Shown piece by piece: positions 10,100 through 35,850 of a stretch of 45,733 nt of DNA; within the stretch, counting starts at the first letter, position 1; the number at the start of each line of letters is the position of its first letter. The position numbers and the translations under genes are program-made. This DNA is from Halomarina oriensis (GTDB lineage: Archaea; Halobacteriota; Halobacteria; Halobacteriales; Haloarculaceae). The stretch spans positions 1 to 45,733 of the forward strand of contig NZ_WSZK01000027.1 of the NCBI RefSeq assembly GCF_009791395.1, read 5' to 3'. A model generated the notes under the pieces. The model ran no database searches, was not told the origin of the DNA, and worked only from the letters and a program-made list of their open reading frames with translations.

Positions 10100-10183
10100 T
10101 CGACTGTACTGTGGGGAGAGAGGGGATGGGAACGATGCGACGTATAATAGAAACCACGTATTTTGATCGAGTGTCGAATAGCC

Positions 10184-10837
10184 TTACCCGACGGCGCACA
10201 CCTTGTAACGGTATTCGTAGTCCTCAGGTACGCACATGCGTCCGGTCACCTCACAATTGTTATAAAACCCATCATCACAAGGAAGATTAAGCGGTCCTCC
10301 TTGCCGGAGCAGTGATCCAACACAAGCCAGACAGCCGAAGGTCGCAGTACCCAGTGTTGCCGCACAGGCAGCACAACCGACCAAAAACGCGGGGATTTGG
10401 AGAGCCCAACCGATGATGTCGACGAAACAATTCCAGTTTTGGTCGAGAAACGGGCAGTCGGAGATAGGAACGGAGCAACAGCCCCCAGGCCCACCTCCTG
10501 TTGCAGCATCTGTACCAACACCCGGTTCGCGTACCAGTGTGGAGGTTTCTTGAGTGACATCACCACTCACCACGCGAGTGGTAGTGACACTACCGTCAGA
10601 AGAGCTGGAAAGTTGCAATGACGGTCCACCACTCACTTCCTCAAATCGATATCCGACCGCATGGAAATCAACTTCATCAGAGGGGTTTCCGAGCCAGAGG
10701 AGGTACGCTTCTTGATTGACGAGAGAACGCTTGTTGTCGAAAGTGATTACAGCGTACTCTCGCTCATCAACGGTTCGATATCTGCTCTGTTCGAATAGAG
10801 GAATCCAACCCTGTTCTTCCATCACGTTCAGAATCAT
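10184..10837 (-). CDS. Halocin C8-like cysteine-rich precursor (main part)
   Basis: This frame encodes 217 residues. Residues 1-80 form a soluble domain of the sort that precedes the toxin in halocin C8-type precursors. A Gly-rich linker (residues 113-120) leads to a C-terminal domain of about 100 residues with 12 cysteines. Its core is a hydrophobic Gly/Ala helix with a C-x2-C-x10-C-x2-C pattern (GCAACAATLGTATFGCLAC), reminiscent of mature halocin C8, which is also short, hydrophobic and Cys-rich. If functional, the peptide would be secreted and kill related archaea. The same frame continues upstream through a single TAA to a Tat signal at 11035, so the natural start is probably there. Similarity is by pattern, not by a database match. 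Confidence 0.65.
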   Translation of the reverse strand: MILNVMEEQGWIPLFEQSRYRTVDEREYAVITFDNKRSLVNQEAYLLWLGNPSDEVDFHAVGYRFEEVSGGPSLQLSSSSDGSVTTTRVVSGDVTQETSTLVREPGVGTDAATGGGPGGCCSVPISDCPFLDQNWNCFVDIIGWALQIPAFLVGCAACAATLGTATFGCLACVGSLLRQGGPLNLPCDDGFYNNCEVTGRMCVPEDYEYRYKVCAVG

Positions 10838-10885
10838 CTCAGCCTCAGGGTCCGACTTTATTTTGGAGACTATTTCGTCTTTTTT

Positions 10886-11035
10886 TTATCGCCTTGGTGT
10901 TTTTTTAACTTCAGGGAATTCGCGGACATCTACGTTTCGTTCAGCACTGGAGGTTCGTATCAGGCTTGTGCCTGTGGCCGTAGCAGCCCCTGCTGTACCA
11001 ATCGATTTAAGGAGTTTTCTTCTATTGACATCCAT
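10886..11035 (-). pseudogene. Tat signal peptide segment of the halocin-like gene, ended by TAA
   Basis: ATG at 11035 opens 49 codons starting MDVNRRKLLKSIGTAG, a classic twin-arginine signal, followed by an Ala/Thr-rich segment and SSAERNVDVREFPEV. The frame then meets TAA (10886-10888) inside an A-rich run. It reopens at once in the same frame into KKDEIVSKIKSDPEAE and the downstream halocin-like protein. A TATA box 28 bp upstream supports 11035 as the true start. As sequenced, the exported precursor could only be made by readthrough or if the base is wrong. Confidence 0.65.
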
Positions 11036-11059
11036 CAGTCAAATATCCGTAGTGCATGG

Positions 11060-11066
11060 TTTAAAT
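11060..11066 (-). promoter_or_regulatory. TATA box of the halocin-like gene
   Basis: Minus-strand ATTTAAA is centred about 28 bp upstream of the ATG at 11035, the spacing of leaderless haloarchaeal promoters. It fixes the start of the precursor upstream of the in-frame TAA and shows that the gene is transcribed separately from the membrane-protein gene. Confidence 0.6.
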
Positions 11067-11106
11067 CTTTGCATCCGTCGATGACAAAATTGGCAAGCTA
11101 AATTAT

Positions 11107-11373
11107 TCAAACTACTCCATTAATAGTTGAAAACCATACGATCACACCGATGCAAACTAGAGCCACGCCAATCATCCCATATTCCAGAGCTACAGGTATC
11201 GATTCGTAGCTAGAGTCGAAAAAATAGTATAGAGAGGCGAGCGTCAGTAGCAACACCAACGAAATATCTGAGTAAAGCACACCTGATTCGGCACCACCAG
11301 ACCAACCAGCGTAAGCACGTAGTGCGGTCCCCACGGCACCAAGCATGAAGACAATCGGGAGATATTTCTTCAT
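11107..11373 (-). CDS. Small three-helix membrane protein, possible halocin immunity
   Basis: From ATG 11373 the product is 88 residues: MKKYLPIVFMLGAVGTAL, then two further hydrophobic helices at about residues 32-50 and 63-83. A TATA-like TTTTATCAA (about 11397-11405) lies 28 bp upstream and supports this start. The frame is open further upstream to a TTG at 11484 and beyond, giving a 125-residue alternative. The gene precedes the halocin-like gene by 71 bp on the same strand and shares its AT-rich composition. Small membrane proteins beside bacteriocin genes often give immunity, but that role here is inferred from position only. Confidence 0.55.
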   Translation of the reverse strand: MKKYLPIVFMLGAVGTALRAYAGWSGGAESGVLYSDISLVLLLTLASLYYFFDSSYESIPVALEYGMIGVALVCIGVIVWFSTINGVV

Positions 11374-11558
11374 TAACTTAATTGTCGTAGCGAGGATTGA
11401 TAAAACTACTCGCCCAGGTGAAGAGACACCGTTAATAAAACCAGGAAATCTTACCGACGGAAGTTCATCAAGTGGGAGATTCAATATTTGAGTTTCGTTG
11501 TAAAACGTGCCGTATCACATGTTTATCTGCATTGAAATCGCGAGTATCTGGACAAACC

Positions 11559-11584
11559 GTCATCATACGCAAACGTAGGATGAC
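11559..11584 (+). terminator. Hairpin with T-rich tail in the islet
   Basis: GTCATC-a-TACG and CGTA-g-GATGAC pair around the loop CAAA, a 10-bp stem with one mismatch. On the plus strand it is followed by T-rich sequence (attttgtt, about 11597-11604), which looks like an intrinsic terminator. It lies upstream of the membrane-protein gene and before the second glycosyltransferase. Confidence 0.45.
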
Positions 11585-11742
11585 GAGAGATTTAGAATTT
11601 TGTTAGAAAATGTCCGACATCATCTGATTAGGCGAATCAACGCTCCGCGTTATGTGTCTGCTGTATTATCACCCTGAGCTCGATTCAGAGCCTGCAGTTC
11701 AGATAACAACGACTTAGGCGTTCGACCGTCCATCGGTTGAAA

Positions 11743-31398: not shown

Positions 31399-32043
31399 TC
31401 AGAGGTTCGATACCATCTCGGTTGCGACCCGCACCTCCTCGTCGTTGACGCCGTGGCCCATCGCCTCGTAGATGCGCTCGTCTACCTCGGCGTCCATCCC
31501 CTCGAACACGTCGCGGGTCTCGTGGACCCGTTCGAGCGGGATGTGCGGGTCCCGGTCCGAACAGCCGAGGAACATCGGCGTCCCGTCGAACGACCCCTCG
31601 TAGTCGCGGGGCGTCCCCTCCGGGCCGTGCAGGCCACCCGAGAACGCGACGAACCCGCCGTACCGGCGTGCGTGCCGTGCGAGGTACTCGCTGGAGAGAC
31701 ACGCGCCCTGCGAGAAGCCCATCACCAGTACCTTCTCGGCGGGGATGCCGGCGTCGGTAGCCGTCTCGATGGCGGCTTCGAGCGCCCGGAACGCCGACCC
31801 GAGAGACGGCTGGTTCTCCGTCATCGGTTCGAGGAAGGAGTTCGGATACCAGGTGTTGCGGGCGGCCTGTGGCGCGAGCAGTGTGACGTCCTCACGCCCG
31901 TGGCTCACCTGCTGGGCCATCTGGAGGATGCTCCGGGCCGTCGCGCCGCGGCCGTGGACCGCGACGACGGCCGCGTTCGCCTCGGCCGGGTCGGCCCCGC
32001 CCGTGACGAGCGACTGGGACTGGTGGGGGCCGTCGTCGCTCAT
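31399..32043 (-). CDS. Phospholipase/carboxylesterase-family alpha/beta hydrolase
   Basis: A 214-residue hydrolase of the carboxylesterase 2 (YpfH/MhqD-like) family. It has NAAVVAVHGRGATARSIL (oxyanion region, residues 23-40) and APQAARNTWYP. The nucleophile elbow is GFSQG, with Ser116 flanked by VLVM and ACLSSEYLAR. The Asp of the triad lies near FLGCSDRDPHIP and the His in MGHGVN. It would hydrolyse esters or thioesters in the cytoplasm. In Bacillus the relative MhqD belongs to the quinone-response regulon. Here it is divergent from the HxlR gene, with a shared 153-bp control region, and near a VOC dioxygenase-like gene. Confidence 0.88.
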   Translation of the reverse strand: MSDDGPHQSQSLVTGGADPAEANAAVVAVHGRGATARSILQMAQQVSHGREDVTLLAPQAARNTWYPNSFLEPMTENQPSLGSAFRALEAAIETATDAGIPAEKVLVMGFSQGACLSSEYLARHARRYGGFVAFSGGLHGPEGTPRDYEGSFDGTPMFLGCSDRDPHIPLERVHETRDVFEGMDAEVDERIYEAMGHGVNDEEVRVATEMVSNL

Positions 32044-32134
32044 CGTGCGCTCACCCCGTCGGGGAGCGCTGCTGGTCGACGGTGAGCGATGCGAGCGGCG
32101 CTGGCGACGGGTCGGCTGTGTAGTTGCATCGATA

Positions 32135-32204
32135 CACCTGGTTACCAGCCGAACTGCTTTAACGGCTCGCGGACGAAGGGACACCAGGTGACATCGATGT
32201 CAGG
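32135..32204. promoter_or_regulatory. Candidate HxlR operator region
   Basis: A TATA-like ctttaac (32157-32163) drives the hxlR gene. The perfect 14-bp palindrome TGACATCGATGTCA (32189-32202) covers the expected transcription start and the ATG at 32197. A second dyad, CACCTGGT (32135-32142) and ACCAGGTG (32183-32190), flanks the TATA element. Binding there would block transcription, so autorepression is the simplest reading. Confidence 0.55.
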
Positions 32205-32574
32205 GGAACGGTACAGCGAGGAGGCGTGTGGCGTCATCGAATCCATCGAACAGATCGGCTCGCAGTGGCGACTCATCGTCCTCCACGACCTGCAGGAGGG
32301 TGAGAAGCGGTTCAACGAACTCAAACGCTCGACGGGGGCGTCCTCGCGGACGCTCTCTCGGGTGCTCGACGACCTCCAGGAGACGGGGTTCGTCGACCGG
32401 CGACTGGAGGAGGACGCGCCGGTGGCGACGTACTACTCGCTGACGGAGAAGGGCTGTTCGCTCCAGCCGGTGTTCGCCGAAATCGAGTGCTGGGCCAGCG
32501 AGTGGCTCGGCGAGAGCGTCGTCGACCCCGAGACGCCGCCGGCCGAACCGGAACTGAGCGAGTCGGTGGAGTGA
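32197..32574 (+). CDS. HxlR/DUF24-family redox-type transcription regulator
   Basis: A 125-residue winged-helix protein of the HxlR (MarR/DUF24) family. It has GVIESIEQIGSQWRLIVLHDL (residues 12-32), the recognition helix region RFNELKRSTGASSRTLSRVLDDLQ, and the wing VDRRLEEDAPVATYYSLTEKG. Cys11 lies 13 residues before Trp24. This is the position of the thiol used by bacterial family members such as YodB and CatR to sense quinones and electrophiles. Two more Cys residues lie near the C-terminus. A palindrome over its start codon and again upstream of the VOC gene suggests it represses itself and controls the neighbouring operon. Confidence 0.9.
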   Translation: MSGERYSEEACGVIESIEQIGSQWRLIVLHDLQEGEKRFNELKRSTGASSRTLSRVLDDLQETGFVDRRLEEDAPVATYYSLTEKGCSLQPVFAEIECWASEWLGESVVDPETPPAEPELSESVE

Positions 32575-32586
32575 GGGCGGGGCGAG

Positions 32587-33168
32587 CTACGGTCGTTCGA
32601 GCCTGAACCGGTCGTCGGTCGTCGCGTAGTAGTTGCCCGCGAGTCGACCGACCGCGTCGAGTTTCGTCACGTCCGGCTTCCCGTCGGTGACGACGCCGTC
32701 GTCGACGTGGGCGTAGACCACCTCGCCGAAGACGAGCGTCTGGTGGCCGACCTCCTGCGTGTCGTACAGTTCACACTCCAGGACGACCGGCGCGTCCGCG
32801 ATGCGGGGCGCGTGGACGTTCGTCGCGTCGACCCGTTCGAGGCCCGCGTGCTCGAACTCGTCTTCGTCGGGGTCGAGCGCCGCGCTCGTCGCGTTCATCG
32901 CCTCGGCGAACTCGCGGGTGACGACGTGGACGGTGAACGCCTCGCTCTCGATGGCGTTGTTCGCGCTGTCTTTCCGGTCCTCGCCCGTGCCACCCGGCGC
33001 GAAGTAGATGACCGGGGGCGCGGCCGAGACGACGTTGAAGAAGGAGTACGGCGCGAGGTTCGCGGTCCCGTCGGCGTCGTAGCTGCCGACCCACGCGATG
33101 GGCCGGGGGACGACGACGCTCGACAGCAGGCGATAGCCCGAACCGAACTCGTCGGGCGTCCCCTCCAT
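32587..33168 (-). CDS. Flavin reductase family protein
   Basis: The 193-residue protein has the FMN-binding split-barrel fold of flavin reductase-like proteins: SVVVPRPIAWVGSYDADGTANLAPYSFFNVVS (residues 17-48) and PPVIYFAPG. The middle is KDSANNAIESEAFTVHVVT and the end HQTLVFGEVVYAHVDDG. It could provide reduced flavin or directly reduce quinone-like compounds. Its ATG follows the stop of the VOC gene without a gap, so the two form one operon on the minus strand. Tight linkage to a ring-cleavage-type dioxygenase and an HxlR regulator fits aromatic or quinone detoxification. Confidence 0.9.
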   Translation of the reverse strand: MEGTPDEFGSGYRLLSSVVVPRPIAWVGSYDADGTANLAPYSFFNVVSAAPPVIYFAPGGTGEDRKDSANNAIESEAFTVHVVTREFAEAMNATSAALDPDEDEFEHAGLERVDATNVHAPRIADAPVVLECELYDTQEVGHQTLVFGEVVYAHVDDGVVTDGKPDVTKLDAVGRLAGNYYATTDDRFRLERP

Positions 33169-33792
33169 TCAGGCTCGCTCCACGGGCACGTCCGTCCCGG
33201 TTGGTGCGTCGGGCAGGTCGTGTTCCTCGACGGGGAGGCCGAGCGATTCGAGGGCGGCGGCGAGGTCCTCGCCGCGGACGAACTCCGCCCCGGCCTCGAC
33301 GCGATGGGCGTGCGCGGTGGCGAGAACCTCGGCCCGCCGGTCGTCGGGGACGACGAACTTGTCCGCGACGAGTTCGACGACGAGGCCGTTGTGGTCCTTC
33401 GTGTAGAGACTGTGGAACGCCCCGCGGTCGAACTCCGAGAAGCGTCGGCCCGATTCCTGCAGGTTCTCGCGGGTCTCGCGGAACTGCGCGGGGTCGAGAC
33501 GGAACGCGAGGTGGTGGACCGCGCCGACGCCGGGGGCCTGGTCCTCGGCGGACTCCCGGTCGGCCTCACAGAAGAACGTGACGAGCCGTCCGTCCCCGGC
33601 GTCGAAGAAGAGGTGTTCGACCTCCGAGCGGTCTAGATTGGGCTGACGCATCACGAGGCGCATCCCGAGCACGTCGCGGTAGAACGCGACGGTGTCCTCG
33701 GGGTTCGACCCGACGAGCGTCACGTGGTCGGTGCCCTCCACCGCGATGGTGCTGGCCGGTCGCTCCGCGCTGATGTCGATGTCGTCGGTCAC
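33169..33792 (-). CDS. VOC-family dioxygenase-like protein
   Basis: The 207-residue product is a vicinal-oxygen-chelate protein with an extradiol dioxygenase or glyoxalase architecture. The three expected metal ligands are His23 (GTDHVTL), His94 (AVHHLAF) and Glu140 (LVVELVAD), with SLYTKDHNGLVVEL the hallmark C-terminal strand. It lacks one of the two usual module pairs, so it is a short form. Likely substrates are catechol or hydroquinone-type compounds. The TATA element GCTATACG lies about 26 bp before the ATG, and a dyad matching the hxlR operator lies 37 bp further upstream. It is the first gene of a two-gene operon with the flavin reductase. Confidence 0.88.
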   Translation of the reverse strand: MTDDIDISAERPASTIAVEGTDHVTLVGSNPEDTVAFYRDVLGMRLVMRQPNLDRSEVEHLFFDAGDGRLVTFFCEADRESAEDQAPGVGAVHHLAFRLDPAQFRETRENLQESGRRFSEFDRGAFHSLYTKDHNGLVVELVADKFVVPDDRRAEVLATAHAHRVEAGAEFVRGEDLAAALESLGLPVEEHDLPDAPTGTDVPVERA

Positions 33793-33846
33793 GTGCCTGC
33801 CTACGCTCTTGGGACGTATAGCATCCCGCGGACGCGGCAGGAACCG

Positions 33847-33864
33847 GGTGACGTCGATGTCACC
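33847..33864. promoter_or_regulatory. Candidate HxlR site upstream of the VOC promoter
   Basis: GGTGACGTCGATGTCACC is a near-palindrome whose core differs by one base from the palindrome over the hxlR start codon. It lies about 37 bp upstream of the VOC TATA element and 55 bp before the start codon, a position suited to an activator or to a looped repressor. Confidence 0.55.
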
Positions 33865-33909: not shown

Positions 33910-34755
33910 CTACCCGAGGTTCAGGACGGCGCGCGCCTCGTCGGGCGTGGCGATGGGCCGCCCGAGCGTCTCGGCGACGTCGACGACGCGTTCGACGAGT
34001 TGGGCGTTGCTCTCGGCGAGTTCCCCACGGCGGTAGTAGACGTTGTCCTCCAGGCCGACGCGGACGTGGCCGCCGAACAGCAGGCCCATCGTGGCGAACG
34101 GGAGCTGGTGGGGGCCGAACCCGAGCGTGTTGAACGTCGCCCCCTCGGGCAGGTCGTGAATCAGTGCGAGGAAGTTCTCGGGTGTCGGGCGTGTGAGGCT
34201 CCCGGACCCGAAGATGAGCGTCGTGTGGACCGGGTCGACGAGGTCACGGCGTTCGAGGAACTGGTACGTCTCGGTCACCTGCCCGCCGTTGAACAGTTCG
34301 AGTTCGGGTTTGATGCCCCGCTCGCGCATCTCGTCGTACAGCGTGTCGACCGTCCCGCGAGTGTTCTCGCTCGTGAGGTGGTGGTAGCGGTTGACCGGCC
34401 CCATGTCGAGACTCGCCATCTCGGGGGCGGGGTCGGTTCGAAGGGGTTGGAGGCGCTGTTCGTCGGGCGCACCGGTCGCCCCCGTCGAGTGTTGAATCAC
34501 GAGGTCCGGCGCTCGGGCGCGAATCTCGTCGTCGATCTCCTGGAAGCGCTCGGTCGAGAACGAGCGCTCGCCGTTGTCCTGCCGGGCGTGGACGTGAACG
34601 ATGCTCGCGCCCGCCTCGCGGCAGGCGGCGGCCGCCTCACCGATCTCTTCGGGCGTCTCGGGGAGGTTCGGGTTCGCCTCCTTGCCGTGGACGCCGCCGG
34701 TGAGCGCCGCGGTGACGACTGCTGGCTCGCCGTCGAGGAACGCCCGGTAGCTCAC
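33910..34755 (-). CDS. BKACE-family beta-keto acid cleavage enzyme (DUF849)
   Basis: A 281-residue TIM-barrel enzyme of the BKACE (3-keto-5-aminohexanoate cleavage enzyme) family. Such enzymes cleave a beta-keto acid with acetyl-CoA to give acetoacetate and a new acyl-CoA. It has VVTAALTGGVHGKEANPNLP (residues 13-32). The metal-binding SIVHVHAR (residues 51-58), IQHSTGATG, ASLDMGPVN and ELELFNGGQV follow. The end reads HVRVGLEDNVYYRRGELAESNAQLV. His residues in VHVHAR are the Zn ligands. Its start overlaps the stop of a 60-residue Cys protein gene by 4 bp, so the two are coupled. The physiological keto acid is not clear. Confidence 0.92.
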   Translation of the reverse strand: MSYRAFLDGEPAVVTAALTGGVHGKEANPNLPETPEEIGEAAAACREAGASIVHVHARQDNGERSFSTERFQEIDDEIRARAPDLVIQHSTGATGAPDEQRLQPLRTDPAPEMASLDMGPVNRYHHLTSENTRGTVDTLYDEMRERGIKPELELFNGGQVTETYQFLERRDLVDPVHTTLIFGSGSLTRPTPENFLALIHDLPEGATFNTLGFGPHQLPFATMGLLFGGHVRVGLEDNVYYRRGELAESNAQLVERVVDVAETLGRPIATPDEARAVLNLG

Positions 34756-34934
34756 AGCCCCTCGGCCTCGCGGTAGAACTCACAGTCCGTCTCGTGGTCG
34801 AGCGCGTACCGGTCGTTGCAGACGTCCGCTCGCATCGGCTGGACGAACGCGTCGACGGCCGTACAGTACGCTCGCTCGGTGTCGAACGACTGCTCGGCGG
34901 CCGCCGCGCGGTACTCCAGATAGGGACAGGCCAT
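34752..34934 (-). CDS. 60-residue cysteine-containing protein coupled to BKACE
   Basis: From the ATG at 34934 the product starts MACPYLEYRAAAAEQSFDTE. It carries four cysteines, at Cys3, Cys23, Cys39 and Cys47, and ends DHETDCEFYREAEGL. Four spaced Cys in a small acidic protein suggest metal or Fe-S binding, similar to a haloarchaeal family of small proteins with an N-terminal MACPYLEYR-type start. Its stop overlaps the BKACE ATG by 4 bp. The role is unknown; it may assist the enzyme or its metal supply. Confidence 0.75.
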   Translation of the reverse strand: MACPYLEYRAAAAEQSFDTERAYCTAVDAFVQPMRADVCNDRYALDHETDCEFYREAEGL

Positions 34935-35040
34935 GGGACACCGACGCACGACTCGGCCAAAAGCGTTCGCGGGCCGCGGTGAGACCGGATGACGTGAGGG
35001 TGACCGACCCGAACCGGTGGGGACGCCGACCGGCGGGGAC

Positions 35041-35850
35041 TCAGTCCCCGCGAGCGATGGGGTTGATTCGGTCGGGGTCGATACGCTGGCTGAACCAGTA
35101 GACACCGGTAGCGAGCACCGCCGCCGCCAGCGCGTCGGTCAGCCAGTGGATGCCGAGGTAGAGCGTCGACAGCACGATGACGAACGCGAGGACGCTCACC
35201 ACTCGTGCGTAGTTCTCGGTCGCGTTTCGAGCGTACAGCGCCGCGAGTACCGACAGGCCGGTGTGGAGGCTGGGGAACGCCTTGACGAGCGTGTCGGTGG
35301 CCAGCACGCCGGCACGGATGACCGGGTCGAACTCCAGCATGAGCGGGTCGACCACCGGGAGGTAGAGTCCCGGAATCCCGACGGGAAACAGCAGGAAGAA
35401 CGGCACCGCCGCGAGGACGAGCGCGACGTACGCCATCGCGTAGCGACGGGCCTGCGTCTCGTCGTGGGCCTTCAGCTTGAAGTACGTGAACAGCACGATG
35501 AACGGGAAGGCGACGAGGTACGCGACGGTGAAGAAGGCCGTCAGCGAGTAGGTGACCCACTCGGGGGCGACGCCGACGACGGACTGGAAACTAGCGACGG
35601 CCGACCCTTCGAGTTCGTAGACGTGGCTGGTGAACGTCCGGTCGGCGTGGAAGCGGTGTGCGAGTTCGTTGACGCAGAACGTGACGACCCAGGCGAGACC
35701 GATGTACCGCCAGTCCGTCCGGAGGAACTCGCGGGCGAACGCCAGTGGTCGAACGTCGGGGAGGAAGACGCGTGCGCCGAGGACGAACGCGGCCAGTGCG
35801 GCCGCGGTCATCCCGACGACGTACTGCGTCGCTGGTTGGAGGGGGACCAT
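35041..35850 (-). CDS. PAP2-family membrane phosphatase / phosphotransferase
   Basis: The 269-residue integral membrane protein has six hydrophobic segments. The PAP2 motifs are visible: a leading Lys near VKAFPSLHTG (residues 190-199, motif 2) and YLGIHWLTDALAA (residues 231-243, motif 3, with the His and Asp). These contain the catalytic His pair. The overall layout resembles the Aur1/inositol-phosphoceramide synthase group rather than soluble phosphatases. It may hydrolyse or transfer lipid phosphate on the outer side of the membrane. It is divergent from the DUF2797 gene, with a TATA-like ctatacc in the shared region. Confidence 0.9.
   Translation of the reverse strand: MVPLQPATQYVVGMTAAALAAFVLGARVFLPDVRPLAFAREFLRTDWRYIGLAWVVTFCVNELAHRFHADRTFTSHVYELEGSAVASFQSVVGVAPEWVTYSLTAFFTVAYLVAFPFIVLFTYFKLKAHDETQARRYAMAYVALVLAAVPFFLLFPVGIPGLYLPVVDPLMLEFDPVIRAGVLATDTLVKAFPSLHTGLSVLAALYARNATENYARVVSVLAFVIVLSTLYLGIHWLTDALAAAVLATGVYWFSQRIDPDRINPIARGD

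Follow-up and report, generated by a model that had tools for sequence, protein, structure and literature searches.

Does the archaeal class Halobacteria possess a regulated defence against quinones and other electrophiles comparable to that of bacteria? The question arises from a window of 45,733 nucleotides of Halomarina oriensis (the whole stretch of DNA analysed), in which genes for a carboxylesterase, an HxlR/DUF24 regulator, a flavin reductase, and a protein of the VOC superfamily lie together. Bacteria place such enzymes under YodB, CatR, and MhqR (PMC6798810, PMC6212828), and the initial annotation proposed a DUF24-centred electrophile/quinone defence on that model. Comparison across the class supports the proposal on a wider scale than was claimed. 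The locus is best explained by a thiol-based HxlR repressor that controls a regulon for electrophile/quinone detoxification, an explanation in which we place reasonable though not full confidence.

Pfam searches confirm the four genes with the domains first assigned to them (Table 1). The regulator gene starts with the ATG at 32197. Only the esterase gene is divergent from it, because the VOC and flavin reductase genes, which abut (33169/33168), are convergent with the regulator gene and preceded by a separate promoter region, where an operator-like site is also found. The gene for a beta-keto acid cleavage enzyme (BKACE) upstream of VOC is followed by a small unclassified ORF (34752-35105); this pair adjoins the regulator in a few other genomes (loci L062, L075, L093, and L127). 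Elsewhere in the window, G+C content is about 0.43 at 10100-11700, against about 0.68 for the window, between two glycosyltransferase-like genes. An ORF at 10184-10837 (- strand, 217 aa) encodes a Cys-rich end of ~75-80 residues after GGGPGG and has no match in Pfam or NCBIfam; its architecture resembles that of halocin C8 precursors.

Table 1. Genes and predicted control elements of the locus, with further genes of the source genome that have a predicted operator upstream
Feature	Position	Strand	Description
MhqD-like carboxylesterase gene	31399-32043	-	214 aa; PF02230 Abhydrolase_2, 4.9e-20
Operator site 1 (predicted), ATACACCTGGTTACC	32132-32146		Esterase side of shared promoter; 10.4 bits; class-wide palindrome
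Promoter-like element, CCGAACTGCTTTAACGGC	32149-32166		Fits class consensus ccGAACcnnTATAnngGT
Operator site 2 (predicted), GGACACCAGGTGACA	32179-32193		Directly before regulator start; 14.0 bits
HxlR/DUF24 regulator gene	32197-32574	+	125 aa; PF01638 HxlR, 1.1e-21
Flavin reductase gene, FMN split barrel	32587-33168	-	193 aa; PF01613 Flavin_Reduct, 7.3e-27
Single-domain VOC gene, ring-cleaving-dioxygenase-like	33169-33792	-	207 aa; PF00903 Glyoxalase, 2.4e-12
TATA-like element of VOC-flavin reductase unit, GCTATACG	33815-33822	-	Putative function, from sequence; also in H. rubra
Predicted operator upstream of VOC	33839-33864		9.5 bits; CGTCACCCGGTTCCT palindrome (33839-33853) plus everted GGTGACATCGACGTCACC (33847-33864)
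BKACE gene	33910-34755	-	Upstream of VOC
DoxX gene	C14:34533		Predicted operator upstream
DoxX gene	G000:C4:102786-103189		Predicted operator upstream
MhqO homolog (the genome's true one)	G000:C14:22244		Predicted operator upstream

The esterase has 4h0c, a Phospholipase/Carboxylesterase, as its nearest solved structure (6.9e-50), and its orthologs retain Ser111 of GFSQG, His197, and Asp165 in 52/52 cases and Asp163 in 50/52. Structural relatives of the flavin reductase are 3bpk (2.7e-31) and 4z85 (3.6e-26), the latter a 2-nitrobenzoate nitroreductase. The VOC protein matches Bacillus subtilis MhqO (3oaj) at 8.9e-12; His23, His94, and Glu140 are present in 67/67 orthologs, align with the metal-ligand segments of MhqO, and are presumably the 2-His-1-Glu metal ligands, as judged from PcpA/MhqO-type enzymes. 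Dioxygenase activity of this protein is plausible; it is not a two-domain MhqO, since it has a single domain in 207 aa whereas MhqO-type enzymes have two VOC domains in ~310-340 aa.

The regulator was matched in 191 of 194 Halobacteria genomes, mostly at ~70-90% identity, and in a phylum-wide draw its best matches outside the class reached at most 43%; it therefore forms a haloarchaeal clade. Its surroundings were surveyed at 120 fetched loci plus the window (121 in all), counting a neighbour if it lay on the divergent strand within 2.6 kb of the regulator, with family identities checked by Pfam on representatives. At least one of DoxX, MhqO/VOC, flavin reductase, esterase, and MsrB was divergent at 75 of the 121 loci, against 5/121 for far flanks; a second, partly overlapping, named set of loci gave 42/67 against 0. 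By locus count these neighbours were DoxX (38), VOC/ring-cleaving dioxygenase (34), flavin reductase (24), esterase (22), and MsrB (8); 45 of the 121 loci had none of them beside the regulator. The initial annotation had raised the point that the genes might lie apart in most relatives. This holds for the exact four-gene cluster, which among the genomes compared occurs only in two Halomarina genomes, the source and Halomarina rubra (with the order esterase, regulator, flavin reductase, VOC, BKACE, as in the window), but not for the functional association, which recurs at the majority of loci given above.

In relatives, a two-domain dioxygenase divergent to the regulator matches B. subtilis MhqO (3oaj) at 6.5e-90, as well as a 2,6-dichloro-p-hydroquinone dioxygenase at 1.3e-47, and DoxX, MhqD-like esterase, and MsrB genes are likewise found head-to-head with the regulator. 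The MhqO-type dioxygenase gene adjoins that of an MhqD-like carboxylesterase at L071, L083, L338, and L350 and a DoxX gene at L358; esterase, MhqO, and DoxX genes lie together, divergent to the regulator, in Haladaptatus halobius, and esterase and MhqO genes are found at the regulator in Halomarina halobia. Neither an azoreductase nor a YodC-type nitroreductase was seen as a recurrent regulator neighbour at the 121 loci; the flavin reductase family that does recur has the nitroreductase relative 4z85.

Expectation-maximisation on the regions upstream of the regulator genes yielded the palindrome TGTNACCWGGTNACA, although symmetry was not imposed; the half-site of the predicted operator is GGTNACA. 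On cross-validation, 48-53 of 61 held-out loci scored at least 9 bits, compared with 0-5 of ~240 control windows, and among loci outside the training set 40/52 reached at least 10 bits, compared with 6/197 control windows. The operator also marks genes of these families that lie away from the regulator: for unlinked VOC orthologs, an everted site was found upstream in 24 of 66 genomes, against 0/66 inside genes and a shuffle expectation of 0.2. The broader idea that all unlinked enzymes carry the operator was rejected, as it was found upstream of only 1/20 unlinked flavin reductases and 3/20 unlinked esterases. Upstream of the regulator in L085, L092, and L087, operator copies occur every 18 bp (e.g., at -101, -83, and -65), a spacing that suggests arrays of bound dimers.

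At the H. oriensis locus, predicted sites 1 and 2 flank the shared TATA region at a distance of 47 bp from each other, a spacing seen in many relatives; the promoter consensus in Table 1 was derived from 121 upstream regions. The everted half-sites of site 2 run on to 32202. The genome has just two exact matches to GGTNACANCGNTGTNA: GGTGACATCGATGTCA at 32187-32202 and a copy on contig C12, which was discarded because it lies inside a protease gene. With the TATA element and transcription starts placed by prediction, the two sites would cover both starts, an arrangement that points to repression and autoregulation. Upstream of VOC, the everted half-sites GGTGAC-N6-GTCACC (33847-33864) fit GGTNAC-N6-GTNACC exactly; the palindrome previously reported there is genuine and similar to the region at the start of the regulator gene. 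H. rubra keeps the half-sites of this operator and has a different spacer. The palindrome pattern has four matches in the window, where 0.31 would be expected, and none of 100 shuffles reached four.

In the 4.07-Mb source genome GGTNAC-N6-GTNACC occurs 14 times and the reversed pattern once. Most of the 14 copies are intragenic; among the few non-coding copies, four lie directly upstream of the VOC-flavin reductase unit, two DoxX genes, and the MhqO homolog. At 14 copies per genome, the chance of a hit in a given 160-bp upstream region is ~5.5e-4, and the DoxX genes took no part in deriving the half-site pattern; the joint chance of the four targets is not a clean probability, because the N6 spacing was settled after inspection of the MhqO site, one of the four target promoters. 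An operator of predicted inverted-repeat type shared by regulator and target promoters, and an MhqO-type dioxygenase that stands beside the regulator in relatives and has a homolog with a predicted operator in the source genome, are traits of a quinone-response regulon. A further intergenic copy (G000:C45:71088-71105; L334 1501-1518) is flanked by two - strand genes that do not look like detoxification genes. The DoxX gene on contig C4 (L312 ~1402-1780) reads in two frames; the frameshift reflects either an error of assembly or a gene that is broken. A looser genome scan, with GTNACCNGGTNAC and one mismatch, returned 148 sites where the reversed pattern gave 37, an enrichment too unspecific for a regulon list.

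The regulator scores 76.9 bits against the winged-helix domain PF01638 (curated cut-off 20.8), and its nearest solved structures are YodB (5hs7, 1.6e-15) and then HypR (1.1e-12). Cys11 and Trp24, which had been placed correctly 13 residues apart, are invariant in 121/121 orthologs, and Cys11 sits in a variable N-terminus. Many members of the HxlR family have a cysteine at the equivalent place; because of this frequency, Cys11 alone is weak evidence and not diagnostic. Further cysteines of the window's regulator are Cys87 and Cys98. Of the 121 orthologs, 41 have Cys in column 98 and 51 in column 90, and no second cysteine is conserved across them. A YodB-like two-Cys disulfide was rejected for want of a conserved counterpart to the C-terminal Cys101 of YodB, and a HypR-like one because HypR Cys14 aligns with Cys11 whereas the second HypR cysteine (Cys49, in RRIC) aligns with Thr46, which is Thr in 121/121. 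In YodB, Cys6 lies at a helix N-terminus and forms quinone adducts (PMC8063818). A thiol switch is likely in the haloarchaeal regulator, with Cys11 as the probable sensor.

That the regulator controls these genes is the part of the proposal in which our confidence is high. The sequences show the genes themselves, their association across the class, the operator sites with their positions, and the constancy of Cys11, and a small detoxification regulon under a one-Cys DUF24 repressor would account for all of these. We infer that it binds the operators, that it represses rather than activates, that it is switched through cysteine, and that quinones or catechols are its main inducers. In its reduced form, a dimer would sit on the paired palindromic operators at its own start and at the divergent esterase promoter, and would also occupy the operators that precede the VOC-flavin reductase unit and the DoxX and MhqO-type dioxygenase genes located elsewhere. 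Once Cys11 was modified by quinones or by other electrophiles or oxidants, the regulator would be released, and the enzymes thereby induced would reduce, ring-open, and hydrolyse the compounds.

The nature of the signal is less secure than the regulon itself, and quinones or catechols are only slightly favoured over general oxidants as the main one. The same regulon and thiol switch could serve a response to disulfide, reactive-chlorine, or peroxide stress, as in HypR of B. subtilis, with DoxX, MsrB, and flavin reductase as antioxidant effectors. HypR is the second-nearest solved structure and MsrB neighbours the regulator at 8/121 loci, as counted above. In Haloferax volcanii, peroxide causes a modest rise in a ring-cleaving dioxygenase that may or may not belong to the regulon (PMC12482152), an observation that fits either signal. 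It is not obvious, however, what the commonest specific enzymes, namely ring-cleaving-dioxygenase types and MhqD-like esterases, would do against hypochlorite or peroxide, and an oxidant signal of this kind is unlikely, though the likeliest of the alternatives.

A catabolic role, in which the regulator would bind a ligand instead of sensing through Cys11 and would govern aromatic carbon use by ring cleavage, esterase action, and beta-keto acid cleavage, is improbable. The BKACE gene does adjoin the VOC unit in Halomarina and lies near the regulator in a few other genomes, but the recurrent neighbours of the regulator include no complete aromatic pathway, no transporter, and no ring-hydroxylating enzyme. 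DoxX and MsrB are out of keeping with a catabolic function, Cys11 stays constant within a variable N-terminus, and the regulator is near-universal in the class. Still less probable is accidental proximity, with the palindromes owned by another regulator: the exact cluster is restricted to Halomarina and ownership of the motif by this regulator is predicted, but the association is found again throughout the class, as is the operator at the promoter of the regulator itself, and the operator accompanies VOC at other loci. Least credible, and rejected, is a formaldehyde or aldehyde sensor like B. subtilis HxlR, with VOC and esterase acting on aldehyde adducts, for although the Pfam family and the Cys11 position are shared with that activator, no formaldehyde-fixing genes are linked and its Cys-Lys methylene crosslink, which needs Lys13 (PMC7835342), is excluded by Val (110) or Ile (11) at position 13 of all 121 orthologs.

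The preferred reading, a thiol-based repressor of quinone and electrophile detoxification, has its closest counterparts in YodB, CatR, and QsrR, the MarR/DUF24 quinone sensors of Bacillus and Staphylococcus. They belong to the same helix-turn-helix family, have an N-terminal sensor-type cysteine and palindromic operators at promoters, and count ring-cleaving dioxygenases among their targets (PMC6798810, PMC6212828). The haloarchaeal regulator differs in forming a separate archaeal clade, in having no conserved second cysteine, and in its operator sequence and archaeal promoters; its predicted targets are DoxX, VOC, flavin reductase, esterase, and MsrB instead of azoreductases/nitroreductases. 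The MhqR regulon (mhqED, mhqNOP, and mhqA) resembles the haloarchaeal one in the MhqO-type dioxygenase beside MhqD-like carboxylesterase and DoxX genes; MhqR is a classical MarR repressor, whereas a DUF24/HxlR protein takes that place here. HypR, despite the aligned first cysteine, differs at the second, and its target is a different oxidoreductase.

The archaeal thiol-based regulators named in the papers searched (PMC9426492, PMC7278568) are MsvR and SurR of the ArsR family and OxsR of the TrmB family, the last of which functions in a haloarchaeon (PMC9426492). They likewise control transcription through thiols, but they belong to other families and have other targets, and in those papers none is of DUF24 type or linked to quinone-type enzymes. 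In the open-licence literature searched, no archaeal HxlR/DUF24 or quinone regulator was found, and the few thiol-based regulators known in archaea include none tied to quinone/electrophile detoxification. Haloarchaea probably have an archaeal version of a stress response so far described only in bacteria. The stronger statement, that throughout the Halobacteria an electrophile/quinone regulon is governed by a one-Cys DUF24 repressor and marked by a palindromic operator code peculiar to it, the first such in archaea, is favoured slightly over its negation.

If this is true, the regulator would be the first DUF24 thiol regulator, and its targets the first quinone-type stress regulon, of the archaea; the regulon might protect the cell from menaquinone or catechol chemistry of its own. 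Because the regulator is near-universal in haloarchaea, the operator defined, and the target list short, archaeal electrophile stress can be put to a direct test in Haloferax, a model genus for genetics in which orthologs occur. The regulon would also offer a function for the vaguely annotated DoxX, single-domain VOC, and flavin reductase genes of haloarchaea.
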